This document shows, one piece after another, positions 2,163 through 38,702 of a DNA stretch of 38,702 bases (positions are counted from its first letter, which is position 1; each line of letters opens with the position of its first letter). This stretch comes from a virus. Position numbers and translations under genes: made by a program. The notes under the pieces are model-generated. The model searched no databases and had not been told where the DNA came from. It saw only the letters and a list, made by a program, of their open reading frames with translations. Where the stretch lies: IMG/VR virus record IMGVR_UViG_3300042558_002638, positions 1 to 38,702 of that record, one strand, 5' to 3'.

Positions 2163-3011
2163 ATGAGCGTAACCCTTCACAAAACCTCGCTGGAGCCGAC
2201 CACGCTCCAAGAAGCCATGCGCTTCTCTGACATCCTGGCAAGCTCCACCATGGTCCCGCGCGATTTTCAGGGCAAGCCTGGCAATGTGCTGGTCGCAATC
2301 CAATGGGGGCGGGAAGTCGGTCTTGGGCCTTTGCAGGCGCTGCAAAACATCGCCGTAATCAATGGCCGGCCCTCGATTTGGGGCGATGCCGCGCTTGCGC
2401 TGGTGCGGGGGCATCCTGACTGCGCCAGCGTTCAGGAAGGCGCGGAAGGCGAAGGCGATGCCCGGCATGGCTGGTGCGAAGTCACGCGCCGAGGCGAACA
2501 ACCCCAGCGCCGGACATTTTCCATTGCCGACGCCAAGCGCGCCGGGCTTTGGGGCAAGTCCGGTCCTTGGACGCAATACCCGGATCGCATGTTGCAGCTA
2601 CGGGCGCGCGGCTTTGCTATTCGTGACGTGTTCCCGGATGCGCTGAGGGGCGTTCTAACGCGCGAGGAGGCGGAGGACACGCCCCCCGAGCCTCGCCATG
2701 TGGAAAATCTCGCCGCCGCCGCCGCACCCGCCCCAGCGCCCGCCGCAAGCCCGGCAAACGAGGCTCTTCCGCTGATTGATCCTCACGCTAAAGAACATGC
2801 CTTTGCCAATGTGGAAATTTGGCACAAGGCCGCGATGCGCGCGATTGGCATGTTGGCGCATGATCCCGCCGCGTTGCGCGCATGGGCTGATGCGAATGTC
2901 GGCACCTTTAAAGTGGTCGCGGCTCGCTACCCGCAAACTGTGCCAGATGTTCACATGGCTATTGCGGAACACCTTAAAGATGAAATCTTGGAACAGGAAC
3001 CCGCAGAATGA
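2163..3011 (+). CDS. RecT-like single-strand annealing protein (probable)
   Basis: 282 aa. The core (about 30-170) holds FQGKPGNVLVAIQWGREVGL, then LQALQNIAVINGRPSIWGDAA, then RTFSIADAKRAGLWGKSGPW and QYPDRMLQLRARGFAIRDVFPDAL. This pattern is typical of a phage protein group usually annotated as RecT-like recombinases, which anneal complementary single strands during replication and recombination. An Ala/Pro linker (about 185-205) leads to a variable C-terminal segment. The next gene encodes a protein with an SSB-type tail, which supports a recombination role. I see no dedicated 5-prime exonuclease next to it. Family assignment is from pattern memory; a profile search would settle it. Confidence 0.65.
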   Translation: MSVTLHKTSLEPTTLQEAMRFSDILASSTMVPRDFQGKPGNVLVAIQWGREVGLGPLQALQNIAVINGRPSIWGDAALALVRGHPDCASVQEGAEGEGDARHGWCEVTRRGEQPQRRTFSIADAKRAGLWGKSGPWTQYPDRMLQLRARGFAIRDVFPDALRGVLTREEAEDTPPEPRHVENLAAAAAPAPAPAASPANEALPLIDPHAKEHAFANVEIWHKAAMRAIGMLAHDPAALRAWADANVGTFKVVAARYPQTVPDVHMAIAEHLKDEILEQEPAE

Positions 3012-3259
3012 GCGGATACGATAACACGAACAAGGGCATTCTTGGCCGTAATGACCGGAAAACCCAAGACATGCACCCGGACTTTTCCGGCTCGATCAAC
3101 GTCGAAGGCCGGGAGTTTTGGCTTTCCGGCTGGGTGAAGGAGCGCAAGGACGGTTCCGGGCGGTTCTTTAGCCTATCGGTCAAGCCGAAGGATGGCGCCA
3201 GCGCGCCAGCCGCGCCAAGTCAAAATAACGCTGATCTTGACTCGGATATCCCCTTCTGA
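3008..3259 (+). CDS. Small SSB-like protein with acidic DIPF tail
   Basis: 83 aa, starting within the stop of the annealing protein (ATGA). The body (HPDFSGSINVEGREFWLSGWVKE, then GRFFSLSVKPK) looks like a compact beta-rich domain known from many phage hypothetical proteins. After a disordered Ala/Ser/Pro stretch it ends in DLDSDIPF. An acidic tail ending DIPF is the signature of bacterial SSB C-termini, which recruit replication and repair proteins. With the annealing protein upstream this suggests a ssDNA-binding or SSB-mimic role (inference); the fold should be tested. Confidence 0.65.
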   Translation: MSGYDNTNKGILGRNDRKTQDMHPDFSGSINVEGREFWLSGWVKERKDGSGRFFSLSVKPKDGASAPAAPSQNNADLDSDIPF

Positions 3260-3753
3260 TGCCGGAACCTTGCAAAGATTGCGGCGCAATGCCTAGCACT
3301 ACCCGCTTTTATGCGGGAGTGCCGCAACGCTGCGCCGAATGCCACAAGCGGCGCGTGCGGGAAAACCGCGCCGTCAAGGCCGATTACTACCGAGATTTTG
3401 ATGCCATGCGATACGTTCGCGATTATGAAAAGCGCCGCGCATCGCATCAAAGTTATGCCCAAACAGAACGCGGTAAGGAAGCTATGCGGCGTGGAAGCGC
3501 CGCATACATTGCGCGCAACCCTGAGCGTAGGGCGGCGCATATTTCTTTGGGTAACGCATTGCGCGATGGAAAGGTTATTCGTCCGGCGGCATGTCAAGCG
3601 TGCGGCTTCAAAGGCCGCATTCAGGGGCACCATGACGATTATGCCAAGCCGCTAGATGTCCGGTGGCTTTGCGTTCCGTGTCACACCAAGGCACACCACG
3701 GCGAGCGCGCCGTTGTTGTTGTGAAAAGGCAGCATCAGGAGCCATCCCCATGA
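3259..3753 (+). CDS. HNH-like zinc-finger endonuclease
   Basis: 164 aa, start overlapping the upstream stop (TGATG). Two zinc-binding halves are visible. The N-terminal one has CKDCG (5-9) and CAECH (25-29). The C-terminal one has CQACG near 112, GHHDDY near 122 and WLCVPCHTKAHH near 134-145. The second half matches small HNH or homing-type endonucleases in which the GHHDDY histidines and the CxxCHxxxH lie on a beta-beta-alpha-metal site. The middle is Arg-rich (ENRAVKADYYRDF, EKRRASHQSY), suitable for DNA contacts. It could be a free-standing homing endonuclease or a recombination nuclease partner; the sequence cannot decide. Confidence 0.65.
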   Translation: MPEPCKDCGAMPSTTRFYAGVPQRCAECHKRRVRENRAVKADYYRDFDAMRYVRDYEKRRASHQSYAQTERGKEAMRRGSAAYIARNPERRAAHISLGNALRDGKVIRPAACQACGFKGRIQGHHDDYAKPLDVRWLCVPCHTKAHHGERAVVVVKRQHQEPSP

Positions 3754-27174: not shown

Positions 27175-27408
27175 TCAATAGAGCGCCACGATATTCGTAG
27201 AGGTTGTAACGGCCATCACGCGCCGCGCGCTTACCGGCAAAACGCCAATCGGAACGGCGGTAAAAGTGATGGCATCACTTCGGCCCGGCATTTGCACCAC
27301 TACATTTCCGCCCGCGCTACCCACATAAAGCGCCTTGCATGGGCCAAGCTCTGTGGTATCCGAGGGCACAACCGCCGCCGCGCCTTCCGCTAAAAAAGTC
27401 CCGCTCAT
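27175..27408 (-). CDS. Small structural protein between terL and portal
   Basis: 77 aa. SDTTELGPCKALYVGSAGGN, VVVQMPGRSDAITFTAVPIG, and VSARRVMAVTTSTNIVALY follow a frequent small phage protein with the pattern P-C-[RK]-A-L-Y-V-G, V-Q-M, then I-x-[AL]-L-Y. It is beta-rich and probably a spike, decoration or head-assembly component. ATGA overlap with the terminase stop. Confidence 0.65.
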   Translation of the reverse strand: MSGTFLAEGAAAVVPSDTTELGPCKALYVGSAGGNVVVQMPGRSDAITFTAVPIGVLPVSARRVMAVTTSTNIVALY

Positions 27409-28748
27409 TCGTATTCCCCTCTCATTGCCGCGCGCCGCTGCAAGTGTTGCCGCGCCAACTCGCCAAGGTTGATCTGTATCCCGCCAGGCGCTGCCTGAAT
27501 GGCAAAGCGCGGTTGCTCGGGCGGTTTGTCAGGTCGCAATTCACGCCATGCCATCGCCATATAGCGAAAGGCGTCCGCCGTGTGACTGGTCCAATCGTGG
27601 CGCGGCTCATCCCGAAACACGCGCTTTTTTTCGTCAAAATCCGCCCGGTATTGGCGCAACGCCTCCAAGCCCTCGCGGCACTTGCTTTCGTCAAACCAGC
27701 ACCGCGCCATGGTCACGCGCGCCGCGTTGATCCCGTCCATGACCTTGCCAGGCCGCAACACGCGCGGCACTCGCCCGGTTAATTCCCGAAATGTCTCAAT
27801 GCGCGTCCGGCCCGTTCCTAAATCGCGCGCCTTAGCATCATGTGGCAGGTAATCGTGCCCATATTGATAACCCTTGGCATTCAACACCGCCGCATAGTGG
27901 GGCAAGCCGTGGCCATTGGCCTCATAGTGATCAATCACCCTAATCTGGTTTGCCGCCACCTGGAAGAACCAAATGGCCGTGCTGTCGCCAACGCCTAAAT
28001 CCCAGGCAGTATGCACCCGCAAGACCGGATCAGCCGGCACATGGCAAATGCGCCCGGCTTCCTCAGCCTGGGCAATCTCGCGCCCGTAATAAGCGCCGAT
28101 GATCGCCGCGTCGAAACTGCATTCCCATTCTTGGGCATATTGCTCCGGCGTCATTACCGCCCGCGCGGCTTCCAACTCGCCTGGGGCGATTAGGCCCGTC
28201 TCCGAGGCGCGTAACATGGCCCGGAACCAGCCGGGGGCCGATGCCCCCTCCCATATTTCCCAGAAGGCATTTCTGCCCTTGGGCGTCCCGATAAACGTCG
28301 CCCAGCCTTCCCGGTCAGCCAGCGCGGGACGGATAACCTCCGGCAAAATGGCCGGCGGCATGTCTGCATATTCATCTAGCACCACGCCATCGAAATACAG
28401 GCCGCGCAACCGCTCATAGTTTTCGGCCCCATAAAGCCGGATGCGCGCCCCGTTTGGCAGGTCGCATCGCAACTCGCTCTCGTGCCATGCCGCGCCCGGT
28501 ATTGCTCGCGTGAACTGCTTCACATAGCCCCAGGCAATGTCTTTGGCTTGGACATAAAGTGGCGCCACATAGGCGAAGCGCGGGTTAGGCTTGGTGCATC
28601 GCAAGGCCGCGTCAACCAAGTCCGCCACACACGCCACCGTCTTGCCCGCGCGCCGATGCGCGACAAGGCAAGCCCAGCGTTCCCGCCGCCGATGAAATGG
28701 CGCAAATTGCTCCCGCGCCCGATAGCTTAAGTCAATCACGCGCGACAT
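27405..28748 (-). CDS. terL: Terminase large subunit
   Basis: 447 aa. The ATPase has a Walker A variant HRRAGKT (31-37), Walker B GVVLDEYAD with Asp125-Glu126, and the coupling motif GTPKGRN (154-160). The RNase H-like nuclease has Asp250 in AWDLGVGDSTAIW, acidic residue Asp304 in HDAKARD, and Asp392 in HTADAFRY. The protein is thus complete. It cuts concatemeric DNA and drives it through the portal. The WDLGVGD form of the first nuclease motif groups it with terminases of many podoviruses and temperate phages. It follows terS by 2 bp. Confidence 0.95.
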   Translation of the reverse strand: MSRVIDLSYRAREQFAPFHRRRERWACLVAHRRAGKTVACVADLVDAALRCTKPNPRFAYVAPLYVQAKDIAWGYVKQFTRAIPGAAWHESELRCDLPNGARIRLYGAENYERLRGLYFDGVVLDEYADMPPAILPEVIRPALADREGWATFIGTPKGRNAFWEIWEGASAPGWFRAMLRASETGLIAPGELEAARAVMTPEQYAQEWECSFDAAIIGAYYGREIAQAEEAGRICHVPADPVLRVHTAWDLGVGDSTAIWFFQVAANQIRVIDHYEANGHGLPHYAAVLNAKGYQYGHDYLPHDAKARDLGTGRTRIETFRELTGRVPRVLRPGKVMDGINAARVTMARCWFDESKCREGLEALRQYRADFDEKKRVFRDEPRHDWTSHTADAFRYMAMAWRELRPDKPPEQPRFAIQAAPGGIQINLGELARQHLQRRAAMRGEYE

Positions 28749-28750
28749 GG

Positions 28751-29140
28751 TTAATCCTCCGCGCGGGGCACTCCGGTCACAATGGTGAAGGCCAGCGGCG
28801 CGTCAGCATCGCCAGAAACGGTCTGTTTGGTCTCAGGCGGCATAATGCGGTTTAGCAAAGCCTCCGCCGCCGCATGACCTTGAGGGTGCGCCGCGTCTTT
28901 TGCCCGCGCAAGCTGCGCCTCAAGGATCGCATCCTTATGCTCTGCAATCTTTGCCTTGATCTCCGCTGCCACTTCCTTGCCGGCTGATTTTGCCTCGCCG
29001 GACGGCTGGTGATTTGCGGCAAAGGATTTCGCCGCGCCTGCGCCTGGCCCGTAGCCTGCGCCGCTTGCTGAAGCGCCGCTTGCTGGACCGCCATGGCCGG
29101 GGCCGTTACCCTTCGGACGAGTCGTCCTTGTGCGGCCCAT
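28751..29140 (-). CDS. Terminase small subunit (probable)
   Basis: 129 aa from the ATG at 29140, whose first bases overlap the stop of an 11-codon ORF (TGATG). It starts GRTRTTRPKGNGPGHGGPAS, a Gly/Pro-rich basic stretch typical of TerS N-termini in this phage group. A helical section follows (KSAGKEVAAEIKAKIAEHKD, ILEAQLARAKDAAHPQGHAA), then NRIMPPETKQTVSGD; the last pattern (NR-x-x-P-x-x-K-x-T-x-x-G) is common at the C-terminus of small terminase subunits. It recognises the packaging site, which is often nearby. A longer frame from 29188 exists but lacks support. Confidence 0.7.
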   Translation of the reverse strand: MGRTRTTRPKGNGPGHGGPASGASASGAGYGPGAGAAKSFAANHQPSGEAKSAGKEVAAEIKAKIAEHKDAILEAQLARAKDAAHPQGHAAAEALLNRIMPPETKQTVSGDADAPLAFTIVTGVPRAED

Positions 29141-29175
29141 CAGTATTTCTTGCCGCCCTTCTTTTTCGTGCCCAT
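29140..29175 (-). CDS. Micro-ORF of 11 codons, coupled to terS
   Basis: ATG at 29175 with GGAG 7 bases upstream, encoding MGTKKKGGKKY, then TGA overlapping the terS ATG (TGATG). The terS start has no convincing ribosome site of its own, so ribosomes finishing this peptide would restart on terS. The peptide carries six lysines in eleven residues and could in addition bind nucleic acid. It is too short for gene callers. Supported by the ribosome site and overlap only. Confidence 0.5.
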   Translation of the reverse strand: MGTKKKGGKKY

Positions 29176-29189
29176 CGTGCTTCTCCATG

Positions 29190-29212: not shown

Positions 29213-29253
29213 CTTGGGCGGTTAAAGTGGTGGGCCTAGGTAGCCATTTATTC

Positions 29254-29324
29254 CCCGGCTGGGGCTACTCCACGAGACGCCTAAGCGTTTCGCCGTTAAG
29301 GCTCATCAGTCGCAAAATGCCGGG
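29254..29324 (-). ncRNA. Type I hammerhead ribozyme
   Basis: Read on the minus strand: CTGATGA (29309-29303), stem II GCC-loop-GGC (29302-29292, 5-nt loop), GAAA (29291-29288), stem III ACGC-UUAG-GCGU (29288-29277), then C at 29276, giving the GUC cleavage triplet (29278-29276). Cleavage is expected between 29276 and 29275. Stem I closes with the 3-prime side 29275-29267 against 29310-29318 (nine pairs, four of them G-U), then a 7-nt bulge and a distal helix CCCGGC (29324-29319) / GCCGGG (29259-29254). All invariant core positions of the hammerhead are present, and both ends lie in stem I, making it type I. A competing hairpin (29268-29263 with 29245-29240) could switch it off. Activity is inferred; the motif itself is directly visible. 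Confidence 0.85.
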
Positions 29325-32019: not shown

Positions 32020-34168
32020 GGTGAACCCCTATTTGTCCCTTTTGGGCAAGCCCATCGGCTGCCCGGTTGAAGGCTTTCTTCTTCGCTTCGTGACTATCGG
32101 CGGTTGATCGCGCGAAAAATGTTTCACGCCATGCGTGCTTACTCGTGGCGACTTGCACCCCAGCTTGTGAGGCTTGGTAAGGCACCGGGACGGGCTGTGT
32201 GGCCATTACGTCATGCAGGATGCGCAGCGCCATGGCCTCGCCGTTGGTGAGGCTGATACGGGGCTTGGTGGGGCGTTCGTCGGTAGGCTCGACCACGCAA
32301 GACGTGACCGGCTTGCCGCGGTGGTTTAGGCCCAGTTCCACGCGCTTGAGGGTAAAGCCGAAAACCCCGTCAATCTCTAGCTCGCGCTGCTTGGTCACGC
32401 GGGCGACGGATGGGCTGTCATTGTCGGCGCGTGAAATCTCGATCTCGGTATCGGTGGCAGCGCGCAGCAGGCTATGGCCACGCGCGCCCTGGGCTTGGTC
32501 TTTGCCGCTATGGTGTATCCACGCCACATGCGCGGCGGTCGCTTGCCGGATGCGGTCGGAATTGGCCACCAGGGCGCCCATGTCTTCCGGGGAGTTCTCA
32601 TTGCCACCGGCCATGGCCCGGCTTAGGGTATCCATGACCACCAGCCCGACCGGGATCGTCATGCGGGCGGCGGCTTCAGCAATGGCGTCAATCAGGCGGG
32701 ACGTGTCCGCTTCCGGGTTAAGCAGGTTCAGGGCGACCGGGATAATGGCGAAGGGGATTTCCTGCCCTGCCAGGCCGCACGTTAAAGCAAAGGCTGCCAC
32801 GCGGTTCTGAATGCCGTGAGCGCCTTCCATGGCGCAGTAAATCACGCCGGCCCTATCCACCTCGCGCCCGCGCCATTCCAGCCCCATCGCCACATGAAGC
32901 GCCAGGTCCGCCATAAAGAACGTCTTGCCGCAGTTGGAGGGGCCATAGGTGACTGACATCGCAGCCTTGATCAGCAAGCCTTCCACAAAGTCTTCCGCCT
33001 TTAGGGCAGGCTTCACGTCTTGGAAATAGATCAGCGGCAGGCCGGTGGGCTTAATGTCCGGGGCTACCTTTTCCGGCTCTAGGCCTATGTCCGGCTCCGG
33101 TTCTGCGCTCCAATGGTCGGGCGCTTGCTCCAGCGGCGGCGGCTCGGGGCGTGTCGGGGCGTATTCCTCCACCACGCGGCGGATCAGCCGGGGCGGCGCG
33201 TCCGGTATGTGCCGGGGCGCCGCCTTGCCGTCTGCAAAACCCCTTTCCAGCGTGTTCATCGCATGGGCAAAGTCTTCGCACTGCCCGCGGATGGAATGCA
33301 CCGCGTCACGCAATGCGGCGATCGCCGGGCCTTCGTGAAGCTCCCCTGCCGTGACAAGCCCGCCGATGGCATAGGCCGCGCGATTGATTGTCGCCCATTT
33401 ATGGCCTTGGCCGGCGTTCCGGATGGCCGCGCATTCCCGCGCCAGGGCTGCCAAGGCATAAGGGGTGCCGTCGCCTGTGGTGACGGCTGTAGGACGTGGC
33501 GCGGGCGTTAAGCCCTTGTAATTGCTTGCGGCCGCACTTTCAGGCCGAGACCGCCCTACCGCCTGTTCATCAAGCTCCGGCGCTTCATCCAGCGCGCGGC
33601 CTTCAATCGCCACCACTTCATGCGAGGGGTTGCTCCGCACTGACCCGTAGTAGTAAGCCTGCGACGCGGTAAAGCTCTCGGTGGCCAATGCCCCCACGAA
33701 AAGCCCATTCAGCCGGGCCACCATGCCAGCGCGGGCCTGTGACGGGATAGAGTGCGCCAGCGGGCAAAGGACGCGCCACCGGGGCGTGTCTTCTGTGTGC
33801 GATGGGCTTGTGTAAATGATGGCCGCGATACCGGCATTAGCGAGTATCTGCCGGGCTCGATCTACCGTGATGGCCTCGCCGTCATAGTCCGCCTCGATCC
33901 CCGTGACGGCAGTTATGTTTTCGTCGTGGCGCAGGCTCCCGCGTGAAGTCCGCACGTCGCCAAACGTCGCCAGCTTTAGCCATGGCAGTTCCGCCTTGCT
34001 GGGGGCGGTGGTGTCGCGCAGCATCGGGATCAGGGCGCGAAGGCTTTGTTCTTGATCGCGTTTTGATTGAGCGGCGTAATCCCGAAAGAATGTGACACTG
34101 AGGGGAATATCCAGCGCCGATCTGCCTGGGGTGTTCATCGTGCCGCCCGTCATTGTCACCGCGCTCAT
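31997..34168 (-). CDS. Primase-helicase (PrimPol-like domain plus RepA-like helicase)
   Basis: 723 aa. The N-terminal domain has TGIEADYDGE (Asp94, Asp96) and TSPSHTEDTPRWRVLCPL (His124), the metal and nucleotide pattern of primase-polymerase-like domains. A helical region (about 250-310) follows, then a RecA/DnaB-type ATPase of the RepA group: Walker A GPSNCGKT (409-416), Walker B VGLVVMDTL (Asp513), and a sensor-like HVAWIHHSGKD (547-557). The C-terminus resembles a winged helix. It would open the origin, unwind DNA and prime synthesis; host polymerase III must do the rest, since no polymerase gene is present. Start overlaps the Mom-like gene stop (ATGA). Confidence 0.85.
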   Translation of the reverse strand: MSAVTMTGGTMNTPGRSALDIPLSVTFFRDYAAQSKRDQEQSLRALIPMLRDTTAPSKAELPWLKLATFGDVRTSRGSLRHDENITAVTGIEADYDGEAITVDRARQILANAGIAAIIYTSPSHTEDTPRWRVLCPLAHSIPSQARAGMVARLNGLFVGALATESFTASQAYYYGSVRSNPSHEVVAIEGRALDEAPELDEQAVGRSRPESAAASNYKGLTPAPRPTAVTTGDGTPYALAALARECAAIRNAGQGHKWATINRAAYAIGGLVTAGELHEGPAIAALRDAVHSIRGQCEDFAHAMNTLERGFADGKAAPRHIPDAPPRLIRRVVEEYAPTRPEPPPLEQAPDHWSAEPEPDIGLEPEKVAPDIKPTGLPLIYFQDVKPALKAEDFVEGLLIKAAMSVTYGPSNCGKTFFMADLALHVAMGLEWRGREVDRAGVIYCAMEGAHGIQNRVAAFALTCGLAGQEIPFAIIPVALNLLNPEADTSRLIDAIAEAAARMTIPVGLVVMDTLSRAMAGGNENSPEDMGALVANSDRIRQATAAHVAWIHHSGKDQAQGARGHSLLRAATDTEIEISRADNDSPSVARVTKQRELEIDGVFGFTLKRVELGLNHRGKPVTSCVVEPTDERPTKPRISLTNGEAMALRILHDVMATQPVPVPYQASQAGVQVATSKHAWRETFFARSTADSHEAKKKAFNRAADGLAQKGQIGVHHDTVWAV

Positions 34169-34800
34169 GCTGCCACCTTTTGCGGTTTTGGATAAGCAAT
34201 GTTTCCCAATTTCAGCCGTAATGCTTTTTTGCGCCCATCTCTATTCAAAGCGCGCCAATACAAATGCTTTCCGTCATCAAAATGCGGCAAAACTTCAACA
34301 CCAAGCTTTTCACTTAAAAGGCGCGGGCTTTGCGTGCCCCATACAGAATTGCACGATCTTCCCGCGTGAAACTTGCCGGCAATTATGACGCCATCCATTC
34401 GTCTGTCCCGCGCGCCGTGATAATTCCAAGATGAAGCCTGATAAATCCCGCCATGATGCTGCTCGGTCTTATCTGCAAAGCTAACCAAAAGATCACCTAG
34501 TTTTTTTTGCACTATATGGCGGACTGTCAAAGAAATTAACCCAGTCAATGGCGGCATGGCCACGCCTTCCACCCTTACCAATCTTGATAACTCCAAGACT
34601 GTTTCGCTCCATCGCGTGGGCGGAATAGAAAAAAAACAAGCGGCAATCGCCGGCCCATAATCACCAAACAACCCTCCGTTTTGATGCCATGTTCCGACGC
34701 ATTGCACGTTGGCCGGTGGGCGCTTTGAATAGTGCCACCGCTTCACCAATTCAGCGCCTTCATCATGCGCGCCAATGCGGAAAAATACACTTTCGCTCAT
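34165..34800 (-). CDS. Mom-like DNA-modification protein
   Basis: 211 aa from the ATG at 34800, which overlaps the stop of the upstream small gene (ATGA). The central region matches the Mom family of phage Mu, a GNAT-fold enzyme that converts adenine to N6-carbamoylmethyladenine. Seen here are LVKRWHYSKRPP (19-29), GPAIAACFFSIPP (49-61), VLELSRLVR (68-76), LTGLISLTVRHI (85-96), LGDLLVSFADKTEQHHGGIY QASSWNYHG (101-129). The final block (V-S-[FY]-A-D then GG-I-Y-Q-A-[SA]-x-W-x-Y-x-G) is the family hallmark. It should hide phage DNA from restriction. The exact chemistry is inferred from Mu. Confidence 0.75.
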   Translation of the reverse strand: MSESVFFRIGAHDEGAELVKRWHYSKRPPANVQCVGTWHQNGGLFGDYGPAIAACFFSIPPTRWSETVLELSRLVRVEGVAMPPLTGLISLTVRHIVQKKLGDLLVSFADKTEQHHGGIYQASSWNYHGARDRRMDGVIIAGKFHAGRSCNSVWGTQSPRLLSEKLGVEVLPHFDDGKHLYWRALNRDGRKKALRLKLGNIAYPKPQKVAA

Positions 34801-34952
34801 TTCTTTGCGCCTTTGCGCTTCCATGTCTCGAAATGCGCCTCGCGTTCCGCGTCCTCTACCGGGTCGGGGACGCGCTCGGCAAGGTTGCGGGCGAAGCGCT
34901 CATAGAAGGCGAGGCGCTCTTCTAGGGTGGAAGGGACGGGTTCGGGGGTCAT
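34797..34952 (-). CDS. Small hypothetical protein (51 aa)
   Basis: Starts at 34952 within the stop of the HNH gene (ATGA) and ends in an ATGA overlap with the Mom-like gene. It encodes MTPEPVPSTLEERLAFYERF, ARNLAERVPDPVEDAEREAH, FETWKRKGAKK: one amphipathic helix pair, acidic then basic. In Mu, mom is preceded by the small translational activator gene com; this gene holds that position but has no Com-type zinc cysteines, so no equivalence is claimed. Confidence 0.65.
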   Translation of the reverse strand: MTPEPVPSTLEERLAFYERFARNLAERVPDPVEDAEREAHFETWKRKGAKK

Positions 34953-35290: not shown

Positions 35291-35571
35291 TATTTGACCG
35301 CATCCCACTTTTCCCACATCGGGCAGCCTTCGCCTTCCTTCGCGTCGCGGAGGTTCATGTGTCTTTTGGCCCGCCCGCTCTTAATTCTCGCAAGGTCATC
35401 AGCAACGCCATATCCAACGGCCAACGAGTGCGGCAGGGACGGCCAAGGCAGTTCATTGGTCGGATAATTGCATCGGACGGTCCATGAAGGCGTATAGGAA
35501 CGCTCCCTGTCCGTCGCGTCGGCAAAGCGGCACGTGCGGCAGTTCTTCAGTTTTCGCCATTGCTTTGTCAT
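35290..35571 (-). CDS. Hypothetical cysteine-containing protein
   Basis: 93 aa, ATG at 35571 overlapping the upstream stop (TGATG). The N-terminus (WRKLKNCRTCRFADATDRER) has a CxxC, with further cysteines at WTVRCNYP and EGCPMWE, spaced like a small zinc ribbon. LPHSLAVGYGVADDLARIKS is the only longer neutral stretch. Probably a metal-binding DNA- or protein-contact module. No family is recognised. Confidence 0.65.
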   Translation of the reverse strand: MTKQWRKLKNCRTCRFADATDRERSYTPSWTVRCNYPTNELPWPSLPHSLAVGYGVADDLARIKSGRAKRHMNLRDAKEGEGCPMWEKWDAVK

Positions 35572-36200
35572 CACATCATTTCCAGCATAGCGCTTTTTGC
35601 CTCTTCGTATTGAGGCGAGTTTAGCTTGCGCTTAAGCCGCCATTCCACCTTATGCAAAATCTGCCGCACTCGCTCGCGCGTTACTCCAAAATGCTTTGCG
35701 GTTGCTTCAAGCGTTGAAGCCTCCCCTCCGTCCAATCCGTAGTAGTGTTTGAGCACCGCAATGTTACGCGCGTCACTTTGACCGTCGCCAGTCTTGATTG
35801 CGTCAAGCGCAGACACTAGCAAATCAACCGCTTCCTTTACAATAAGGTTGCGCTCAGGATCGTAGGCGATGGAAGGCGGCGCTTGGTGCATCAATGCCGG
35901 CAGGCTTTCGGCGTCAACGTCGCGCGCGACGCGGTTTGTTTGCAGCGCGCGGCGCAAGAATGGCGCAGGGAATAGGTCTTCTGGCAAACGTTTTAGTGCA
36001 TACCCTATGCGAACAATACTGTCTCGTAATTCGCCGCACGGCTTATATGGAGCGAGTTTCAGGTTAAGGTAATCACCAACCGTGCTGTTATTCACGCAAG
36101 ACGCCCGCGCTAATTCCGTCGCAGTGGCGAAGCCTGCCTGATCCATAGCCCGAAGCATCACCGCATTCTTCACGGTAACGATTACTCGAATGTCTTTCAT
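35571..36200 (-). CDS. HTH / sigma70 region 4 fusion regulator
   Basis: 209 aa, start overlapping the upstream stop (ATGA). Residues 11-80 are an XRE-like domain (NAVMLRAMDQAGFATATELA, RASCVNNSTVGDYLNLKLAP, RIGYALKRLPEDLFP). Residues 145-195 are sigma70 region 4 (NIAVLKHYYGLDGGEASTLE, ATAKHFGVTRERVRQILHKV EWRLKRKL); the T-R-E-R-V-R-Q-I motif is the -35-recognising helix. Regions 2 and 3 are absent, so this is not a full sigma factor. It probably joins host RNA polymerase to redirect it to phage promoters such as those with weak -10 boxes. The fold combination is known in phages of alphaproteobacteria. Confidence 0.8.
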   Translation of the reverse strand: MKDIRVIVTVKNAVMLRAMDQAGFATATELARASCVNNSTVGDYLNLKLAPYKPCGELRDSIVRIGYALKRLPEDLFPAPFLRRALQTNRVARDVDAESLPALMHQAPPSIAYDPERNLIVKEAVDLLVSALDAIKTGDGQSDARNIAVLKHYYGLDGGEASTLEATAKHFGVTRERVRQILHKVEWRLKRKLNSPQYEEAKSAMLEMM

Positions 36201-36541
36201 CTCACATTCCATCCCCATTCCTGCAACATCAGCACCGCGTCATCCTGCGACCGCACAACCGCCACGTCATGGCCCATGCGGCGCAGCATGGCGAGGCAGT
36301 CGTCTTGCGCGGCGCTAGTGCGGCCTTTCTCGGCCTTCACCTCAAGGAACGCCACGCGCTTGTCCGGCCCTACCAGCGTCAGGTCAGGCCAGCCCGTGAT
36401 CATGCCTTCTGCCTTGAGCATTCTGCCGCCGATCACGCTGCGCTTACCGGCATTAGGCGAGTGGTGACACACCACGCCAGACAGGGCCAAACGGCGCTTG
36501 ATGGCGATCTGGATGGCACGCTCTGGCGCGGCGCGGGTCAT
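36197..36541 (-). CDS. VRR-NUC domain nuclease
   Basis: 114 aa, nearly the whole length being the VRR-NUC (PD-(D/E)xK) fold. Signature residues are GWPDLTL (Asp53), VAFLEVKAEKG (Glu67, Lys69) and SAAQDD (Gln79). It begins ERAIQIAIKRRLALSGVVCH, the usual helix-strand lead. Single-domain phage members are structure-specific nucleases, thought to resolve recombination or replication junctions as homodimers. Complete and apparently active. Confidence 0.85.
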   Translation of the reverse strand: MTRAAPERAIQIAIKRRLALSGVVCHHSPNAGKRSVIGGRMLKAEGMITGWPDLTLVGPDKRVAFLEVKAEKGRTSAAQDDCLAMLRRMGHDVAVVRSQDDAVLMLQEWGWNVR

Positions 36542-36962: not shown

Positions 36963-37153
36963 CTCTCTCTCCTCCTCTTCATCCATTCCGCCTCCGCCAC
37001 GCATTCCGTGATATGCAGCGATTGGCCCTCGCGCATTCCCCACCGGACGAAGTTCTCTGCAAGCGCGCAAGTGCGATGCACGACCATGCCCTCTTCGCAT
37101 TGCGCGCCTTCGGGCGGGCAGATCAGGAATAGCAAGATGAAGGCGGGTTTCAT
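36959..37153 (-). CDS. Small secreted or periplasmic protein (probable)
   Basis: 64 aa, start overlapping the methyltransferase stop (ATGA). MKPAFILLFLICPPEGAQC looks like a short signal peptide with a Cys at position 19, though the residues before it (EGAQC) are a poor lipobox. The rest (VVHRTCALAENFVRWGMREG, ITECVAEAEWM) has two more cysteines that could form a disulphide in the periplasm. Longer upstream frames lie inside the methyltransferase gene. Function unknown. Confidence 0.6.
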   Translation of the reverse strand: MKPAFILLFLICPPEGAQCEEGMVVHRTCALAENFVRWGMREGQSLHITECVAEAEWMKRRRER

Positions 37154-38103
37154 CGCGCTACCAACAACGGCGCATCCGCCGTAATGCGTTCCCGCGCAAG
37201 CCGCGCATATTCCGGGTTCAATTCTATGAGCGTGGCGCTGCGCCCGAGCCGATCCGCGACAAGCCCGGTCGTGCCTGCGCCGCCGAATGGGTCCAGAACC
37301 GTATCGCCGGGGCGGCTGCCTGCCTTGATGCACCTCTCAGCGAGGTCTGGCGGCATGGTGGCGAAGTGCGCACCGCGATACGGCTGCGTGGCAATCGTCC
37401 AGACATTCCGGGCGTTGCGGGTTAGCCCTGTCGGGTTTCCCGTCCGTGCCCGACTGCCGCCATCGGCGCACATCGGGTCGGAAACCTTGCGCGCGTCTGT
37501 CCTGTTGTGCCGGTCGTCGCCGGGGAAGTCCGCAGGCTCCGCAATCGCCGCCGCGTCGTAGTAGTAGCTCGCCCGCTTGCTCAGCAGGAACACGTTTTCA
37601 TAGCTGGACGTGGGCCTGTCCCGCACGCTTTCGGGCATCGGGTTTGGCTTGTGCCAAACGATGGCGCTGCGGAGATACCAGCCATCGGCGCGCAGCGCGA
37701 AGGCGACCATCCAGGGGATGCCGAGTAGGTCTTTGGGCTTGCAGCCTTGCGCGGGTCGCCGCGCCGCTTGGTCGCCTGCGCCTTCTGCGTGAAGCCGCTT
37801 TGCGCCGACCCCGCGTTGATTGTCGTCTCGCCCCCCATGCGCGCCGCCTTGGGCTGCATAACTATCCCCAAGGTTCAGCCAGAGCGTCCCATCATCGCGC
37901 AGCACGCGCCGCACTTCCCGGAACACGTCCACCAGCCGCGCCACATAGGCGTCTGGCGTTTCTTCGAGCCCGATCTGCCCAACATGGCCATAGTCGCGCA
38001 GCCCGTAGTATGGCGGGCTTGTCACGCATGTCTGCGCCATGCCATCCGGCAAGCCACGCAGCACTTTAAGGCAGTCACCGATCATAATGGTGGAAGACGC
38101 CAT
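37150..38103 (-). CDS. Beta-class DNA methyltransferase (N4-C or N6-A)
   Basis: 317 aa from the ATG at 38103, which overlaps the GcrA-like stop (TGATG); an ATG at 38142 is less likely. Catalytic motif IV TSPPYYGLRDYG (28-39) comes first, and the SAM-binding motif I DPFGGAGTTG (about 267-276) near the C-terminus, the order of beta-class amino-methyltransferases. SPPY is commoner in N4-cytosine enzymes, while N6-adenine enzymes such as CcrM usually have DPPY, so the base is undecided. There is no cognate restriction gene beside it. It may protect phage DNA or create methylation states sensed by the upstream GcrA-like protein (inference). Confidence 0.85.
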   Translation of the reverse strand: MASSTIMIGDCLKVLRGLPDGMAQTCVTSPPYYGLRDYGHVGQIGLEETPDAYVARLVDVFREVRRVLRDDGTLWLNLGDSYAAQGGAHGGRDDNQRGVGAKRLHAEGAGDQAARRPAQGCKPKDLLGIPWMVAFALRADGWYLRSAIVWHKPNPMPESVRDRPTSSYENVFLLSKRASYYYDAAAIAEPADFPGDDRHNRTDARKVSDPMCADGGSRARTGNPTGLTRNARNVWTIATQPYRGAHFATMPPDLAERCIKAGSRPGDTVLDPFGGAGTTGLVADRLGRSATLIELNPEYARLARERITADAPLLVAR

Positions 38104-38702
38104 CACCCGCGCGCCCAAACCATGTCGCGATTTTTCAGCCATCCCGCAGGCGGCGGATTATTCGCGCTCTTGGCAGGCGGCGCCGCGTAAATCAAAGCAA
38201 AATGCTCCGGGCAGTAAGGCGATTTCAGCCCGCGCGCATTGGCCCGCACCGGTTCATTGCAGGTGCGGTCGCCTATCGGATGGCAGCATTGCGTCCCTAA
38301 AAAGACCCGAGGCGGCGGCGTTTCCGCAACCGCCTCGGGCAAGATTCGCGCAGGCTGAGAAAACACCTGGCGCTCGACTGCGGGGGAGGCACCGCAGGAG
38401 TTCGTGGCGGCACGTGGCCGCGATGGGGAAGCCGCCCGCGAACCGGCAACGGGAAGTTCTCGATTACTGCGGGCGGCAGGCCGCGCCACCACGGCACGGC
38501 TTTTCGGTGACGCGCGGCGCCCGGCCACAAGGCCGAGAAACTTCGCGCGGTATGAAATGGCATGCAGGCTGCGCTCCATGCGAGCGGCAATCTGTGCGGC
38601 GGTCAGAAACCCGCCATAAATGGCCCGCAGCGTCGCGTCATCTGCCTTAGTCCAAGACTGCGACGCGGCAAAATTGATCGGCGACCCGCGCGATTGCAAG
38701 CG
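38103..38702 (-). CDS. GcrA-like regulator, C-terminal part (begins at 526)
   Basis: This piece encodes residues 47-245 of the protein that starts at 526. It includes the second HTH, a basic and proline-rich linker (about 105-180), and a C-terminal module with CCHPIGD near 185-191, a Cys near 194, and YCPEH near 209-213. The order matches the GcrA C-terminal signature (C-x-x-P-x-GD, then C, then YC-x-x-H), the part that contacts sigma70 in cellular GcrA. The stop TGA overlaps the likely start of the methyltransferase gene (TGATG), implying translational coupling. Substitutions between the two contig-end copies cluster in the linker. I am confident of the family and less so of the regulatory targets. 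Confidence 0.8.
   Translation of the reverse strand, partial: RLQSRGSPINFAASQSWTKADDATLRAIYGGFLTAAQIAARMERSLHAISYRAKFLGLVAGRRASPKSRAVVARPAARSNRELPVAGSRAASPSRPRAATNSCGASPAVERQVFSQPARILPEAVAETPPPRVFLGTQCCHPIGDRTCNEPVRANARGLKSPYCPEHFALIYAAPPAKSANNPPPAGWLKNRDMVWARG
38315..38702. repeat. Right copy of the 388-bp contig-end overlap
   Basis: Counterpart of bases 1-388, with substitutions at 38441, 38447, 38466, 38473 and 38575. Four of the five change an amino acid of the GcrA-like protein and one is silent. Joining the two copies restores one uninterrupted reading frame and gives a unique genome length of about 38314 bp. Confidence 0.9.

Follow-up and report, generated by a model that had tools for sequence, protein, structure and literature searches.

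What does a hammerhead ribozyme do in a phage genome? The question arises at a locus in a viral record of 38,702 nucleotides (IMGVR_UViG_3300042558_002638, positions 1 to 38,702; this whole stretch is hereafter the window), in which the minus strand carries a hammerhead ribozyme (HHR) motif upstream of a terminase gene, terL. Phage hammerheads have so far been without a clear job; the one described here has a fixed place, junction J2 of a conserved RNA. We consider it reasonably likely that this RNA is a phage-specific small RNA, that the HHR at J2 nicks or trims it, and that the product acts in trans.

The hammerhead motif and the RNA around it

The minus strand of the window contains every element of a type I HHR between 29313 and 29272. 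An open stem I of 4 bp (GCGA, 29313-29310, with UCGU, 29275-29272) leads into the core CUGAUGA (29309-29303). Stem II is formed by 3 bp, GCC/GGC (29302-29300 with 29294-29292), and is closed by the loop UUAAC. The second core segment, GAAA (29291-29288), is followed by stem III, which comprises 4 bp when A15.1-U16.1 is counted (A-CGC/GCG-U, 29288-29285 with 29280-29277) and is closed by the loop UUAG. C17 lies at 29276, directly ahead of stem I, and cleavage is predicted between 29276 and 29275. The motif has the three-helix architecture of an HHR, and all invariant core positions are present (C3, U4, G5, A6, G8 and A9; G12, A13 and A14; A15.1-U16.1; H17, at 29309-29303, 29291-29288, 29277 and 29276). 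A descriptor that demanded every core base and a minimum of 3, 3 and 4 pairs in the stems matched the window once, at this site, and a match occurred in 1 of 1000 dinucleotide shuffles.

The preliminary description of this locus had proposed a complete type I hammerhead with this cleavage position and had called it beyond chance; the core, the helices, the covariation and 61 relatives, the position of C17 and the shuffles bear these proposals out. Its nine-pair stem I was an overestimate: a stem I exists, with covariation behind 4 bp, and the nine pairs included G-U pairs and two bases of another conserved helix. Considered alone, without its relatives, the HHR of the window is suggestive. The site is a predicted self-cleaving type I hammerhead in which every testable feature of sequence and structure was found; it falls short of the curated Rfam cut-off, which is a database rule and not a molecular property.

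The HHR is embedded in a conserved RNA of ~135 nt (29361-29227, minus strand), identified from alignments, covariation and a covariance model of HHR-free relatives, that comprises two interleaved H-type pseudoknots. This larger RNA was absent from the preliminary description. In the first pseudoknot, a conserved CGUUG (29361-29357; CGUGG in most relatives) lies on the 5' side of helix a, in which GCUCC (29356-29352) pairs with GGAGC (29335-29331). Helix b, comprising GGUGGG (29348-29343) and CCCACC (29234-29229), crosses helix a. In the second pseudoknot, helix c pairs CCCGGC (29324-29319) with GCCGGG (29259-29254), the two segments at the ends of the interval first described, which are not an outer part of stem I. 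Helix c crosses helix e, in which GUAGCC (29268-29263), with a conserved CGUGGA ahead of it, pairs with GGCUAC (29245-29240).

The circular order of this scaffold is a b a' c (J2) e c' e' b' (J1). The pseudoknots b' a b a' and c e c' e' are joined head to tail, and each carries a conserved CGYGG between its junction and its second helix. By inspection only, the two also resemble each other in the CGUGG or CGYGGA that follows the junction, in a short CC or CA second loop and in an A-containing third loop. The window has the helix order a b a' c e c' e' b' and the words CGYGG, AUCUGG and AAUAA that define the scaffold.

Relatives of the RNA

A blastn search returned one distant phage match, in Enterobacter phage SDFMU_EhYP, which spanned exactly this stretch; the sequence differences from the window were paired changes, and the strongest conservation lay beyond the hammerhead. 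Searches of IMG/VR with conserved words, using successive patterns, yielded 43, at least 120 and 74 stretches. Cultured phages with a member include Pectobacterium phages Pappous and Taid, Dickeya phage Setonix, Arthrobacter phages Constance and Karkharias, and Mycobacterium phages Gaia and phiGD24-3. The scaffold is common to many unrelated phages of Actinobacteria and Proteobacteria. The family pattern found in 74 viral stretches occurred 3 times in 84,980 bacterial and archaeal species genomes, each time in a metagenome-assembled genome, and on these counts the family appears almost confined to phage.

Parsing left 87 distinct members (individual loci are given below as L numbers). With small variation, all have the form CGUGG-a-CA-b-UGACA-a'-AUCUGG-c-A-J2-CGYGGA-e-CCN-c'-AAUAANU-e'-CUAG-b' or a circular permutation of it; since members were collected by conserved words, the conservation of these words is partly search selection. 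In the members' alignments, the scaffold loops are almost invariant and the helices vary. Changes on both sides of a pair occurred in 5 of 6 columns of helix a, in 5 of the 5 columns counted for helix b and in 4 of 6 columns of helix e. Helix c is nearly invariant, with compensatory variants in two mycobacteriophages (CCCAGC/GCUGGG) and in Pappous (CCCGCC/GGCGGG).

Quantitatively, 96.4% of alignment cells pair in 40 HHR-bearing members, with both-side changes in 17 of 27 pairs. This set contained 215 double-change cells, as compared with 60 in shuffles (0 of 500) and 21 to 58 when the pairing was slid. In 19 HHR-free members, 100% of cells pair and 46 double changes were found, versus 12 in shuffles; for both sets, the members are related and thus non-independent, and the shuffles leave this kinship in. 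An unguided scan of the alignments recovered helices a, b, c and e and HHR stem I; it also returned a small number of short alternatives that overlap one another and lie in invariant columns. A covariance model constructed from HHR-free members only matched the window at 29227-29322 (46.2 bits, E 1.7e-10) despite the insert, and detected 12 of 12 records tested. Minimum-energy folding, with z values of -1.6 and -0.6, said little, as pseudoknots lead one to expect.

The content of J2 differs between members. Of the 87, 61 have a canonical HHR and 24 a short or different linker; in the other 2 the insert is long and its core has decayed. The full HHR core is accordingly retained in 61 of 63 hammerhead-like inserts, with stems that vary by compensation, which argues for selection on catalysis. 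The decayed cores are those of Gaia (GUUGAUAA; L046:2973-3118) and L064:1383-1520 (CUGACUA); their scaffolds are intact and the ribozymes are presumed dead. Among the 61 intact HHRs, pair 10.1-11.1 of stem II, beside the core, is G-C in 35, A.A in 18 (including L014, L040, L044, L048, L065, L084, L093, L095, L119, L131 and L156) and U.U in 4 (L002, L022, L032 and L145).

Twelve members are circular permutations, all 12 with a hammerhead, which is located at the 5' end. These members open at J2 and not at J1, and read hammerhead, e, c', e', b', a conserved J1 hairpin, a, b, a', c. In SDFMU_EhYP (L001:2996-3164), pairing of AAGAGCACUG, which lies upstream of the hammerhead, with CAGUGCUCUU, which follows helix c, could close the permuted RNA. 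L037, a close relative of the phage of the window, carries two diverged copies of the RNA in tandem (2564-2696 and 2736-2876, minus strand), as compared with the single copy in the window.

Genomic setting and proposed role

According to ARAGORN, 22 member loci contain a tRNA. In 14 of these 22 loci the RNA lies no more than 20 nt from a tRNA (1.1 expected); with the limit set at 300 nt, the number is 19 (5.3 expected). RNA and tRNA always share a strand. In L153, it occupies the gap between tRNA-Gln and tRNA-Arg; in L005 and L027, tRNAs abut it on both sides. We considered whether the ribozyme-free members are those processed by tRNA enzymes, and found no significant association (Fisher p 0.088, on non-independent data). 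Separately, the viral contig L005, with its dense tRNA array, also carries a bacterial-type RNase P RNA gene (2968-3382, minus strand; 266 bits). The phage of the window encodes, on the minus strand, a Mom-like DNA modification protein (34165-34824), a sigma-70 region 4 protein (35571-36218) and an N6/N4 DNA methylase (37150-38142).

Other members occur in a gap between capsid and tail genes (SDFMU_EhYP) or near terminase, scaffold, head, helicase or integrase genes. No neighbouring gene was constant among the member loci, for which gene calls are crude in metagenomic members. In the window, a consensus scan located an intrinsic terminator just 3' of the RNA (29214-29190, minus strand), as had been described, consisting of a stem (29214-29200) and a T tail; the stem is kept in L012, L034 and L037. 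The next open reading frame on the minus strand (28751-29188, 145 aa) precedes terL (27405-28748, minus strand). The earlier placement upstream of terminase genes holds for terL, which has PHROG and Pfam matches; the frame between had no match in PHROG or Pfam, and small terminase is a label by position only. The order RNA, terminator, gene before terL is common to the window, L012, L034 and L037. A block upstream of the RNA that includes TTGACA is conserved in the window, L012 and L034. Between this block and the RNA, the window has an insertion of ~110 nt relative to L012 and L034 (29505-29365, minus strand), flanked by TTTTGCGCCCGGAGCC repeats.

The terminator directly after the RNA in this lineage is no less compatible with a small-RNA gene than with an mRNA leader. 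Outside tRNA arrays, a terminator follows the RNA in 8 of 65 members, versus 1.1 expected. Moreover, the varied positions, the adjacency to tRNA and the lack of a fixed neighbour are better accommodated by a free small RNA than by a leader tied to one gene. The helices, the permutation, the hammerhead core, the phage specificity and the tRNA adjacency come from comparison; what we infer is cleavage in the cell, a free small RNA and action in trans.

In the mechanism we propose, the phage would make a separate small RNA, either from a stretch with its own terminator, as in the lineage of the window, or from within a tRNA array, as in others. The RNA would fold during transcription and the HHR would cut at J2. 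In the common order, that of the window, this cut would nick the scaffold into two pieces, which helices b and c could hold together. In the permuted order, the same cut would create the 5' end of the scaffold. The assembled double pseudoknot would then probably act in trans by binding a protein or an RNA of the host or the phage. The scaffold itself might replace the tertiary contact between the loops of stems I and II. Because versions of the RNA without the ribozyme and in permuted order occur naturally, they constitute built-in controls that make the purpose of the hammerhead testable.

Several results weigh against a trimmed, trans-acting small RNA. At the Rfam gathering threshold, the window gave no hammerhead match, and no Rfam 15 family reached its curated score, for hammerhead or scaffold, in the window or the ten relatives tested. 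No sigma-70 promoter was found upstream of the RNA by consensus. Judged from the 24 members without an HHR, the ribozyme is not essential to the scaffold. Finally, a tRNA lies within 300 nt in only 19 of the 87 members and a terminator is close in only 8 of the 65 others, so that for most of the family a free small RNA is only presumed.

The Rfam scores also bear on whether the motif is a chance resemblance or a dead ribozyme, with a core that is present and does not cleave. The covariance-model search suggested in the preliminary description had a divided outcome: nothing passed at gathering, yet Hammerhead_3 scored 18.2 bits (E 0.25) in the window under permissive settings, and in SDFMU_EhYP the Hammerhead_1 model reached 28.7 bits (E 3e-5; cut-off 34). 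The scores below curated cut-offs and the decayed cores of Gaia L046 and L064 speak for such an explanation. By contrast, the rarity of the descriptor in shuffles, the intact core and covarying stems of 61 relatives and the SDFMU_EhYP match make it hardly credible. The recurrent A.A or U.U at 10.1-11.1 is unusual and may partly explain why Rfam misses these HHRs. Alternatively, in a broader form of the processing idea first put forward for this locus, the HHR could cut phage messages in cis, with the pseudoknots shielding the new 5'-OH and 2',3'-cyclic phosphate ends and so stabilising or separating the messages of neighbouring genes. The RNA of the window precedes packaging genes, that of SDFMU_EhYP sits between a terminator before it and tail genes after it, and a role in cutting long transcripts has been suggested for prophage hammerheads that flank genes (Perreault et al. 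2011, PMC3088659). Nevertheless, we regard such processing as unlikely, given the 24 relatives that lack the ribozyme, the many members within tRNA arrays, the inconstant downstream gene, the terminator that immediately follows the RNA in the lineage of the window, and the common order, which places half of the scaffold upstream of the cut. For related reasons (the varied gene settings, the tRNA arrays and the ribozyme-free relatives), RNA processing at a switch to late expression, as first suggested for this locus, is unsupported as a general role.

In a further alternative, the double pseudoknot would sense a metabolite or a protein and gate the attached hammerhead. Compact pseudoknots are frequent among ligand-binding RNAs, the scaffold loops are near-invariant while the helices vary, and the HHR is attached via a stem I only about 4 bp long. 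However, ribozyme-free members retain the scaffold, and no constant gene presents itself as a regulatory target. If the scaffold does gate the ribozyme, which we think quite improbable, the RNA would be a natural allosteric hammerhead. Overall, we prefer the trimmed, trans-acting small RNA, and put at about even the chances that the family is a new phage-specific class of non-coding RNA, namely two fused H-type pseudoknots with permutation-tolerant junctions, in most cases with a hammerhead in one of them, whose action in the infected cell would be in trans; gating of the ribozyme would be the strongest form of this reading.

Comparison with known systems

The HHR resembles Hammerhead_1 (RF00163) in its core (CUGANGA, GAAA and UH) and in its three helices, with stems II and III closed by loops and stem I open. 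It differs in that the short stem I runs directly into the conserved scaffold, in its score below the Rfam cut-off and, in 22 of 61 relatives, in the A.A or U.U at 10.1-11.1. Such hammerheads fall in a search blind spot, in that they score under Rfam thresholds and the A.A/U.U variant may hide ribozymes of this kind. The scaffold, a compact double pseudoknot supported by covariation, has no Rfam entry and is slotted into tRNA arrays. No description of it or of its consensus words was found in the literature searched, with subscription papers and preprints outside the search.

Small RNAs beside phage tRNA genes have precedents. The stable RNAs rnaC and rnaD of T4 (about 120-140 nt) lie in the T4 tRNA cluster, a likeness of location only; they were rejected as homologues, as the scaffold model had no match in the T4 tRNA region. 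Theta ribozymes are likewise small and adjoin phage tRNAs (PMC10879173, which does not mention hammerheads), but their fold is HDV-like and unlike that of the HHR. The phage and prophage hammerheads of Perreault et al. (PMC3088659) are intergenic, as here; the scaffold is not described in the passages of that text considered. PaP3 and Bcep176, named there, were rejected as members of the family, having no match to the scaffold model.

Pseudoknots and natural permutation have also been reported for non-circularly permuted hammerhead RNAs (Eckert et al. 2023, PMC10085705). In that case, the ribozyme itself is permuted, whereas the present family has a normal type I ribozyme and the circular permutation affects the RNA around it. 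Few natural RNAs are known to occur as circular permutations, and the scaffold would join them.
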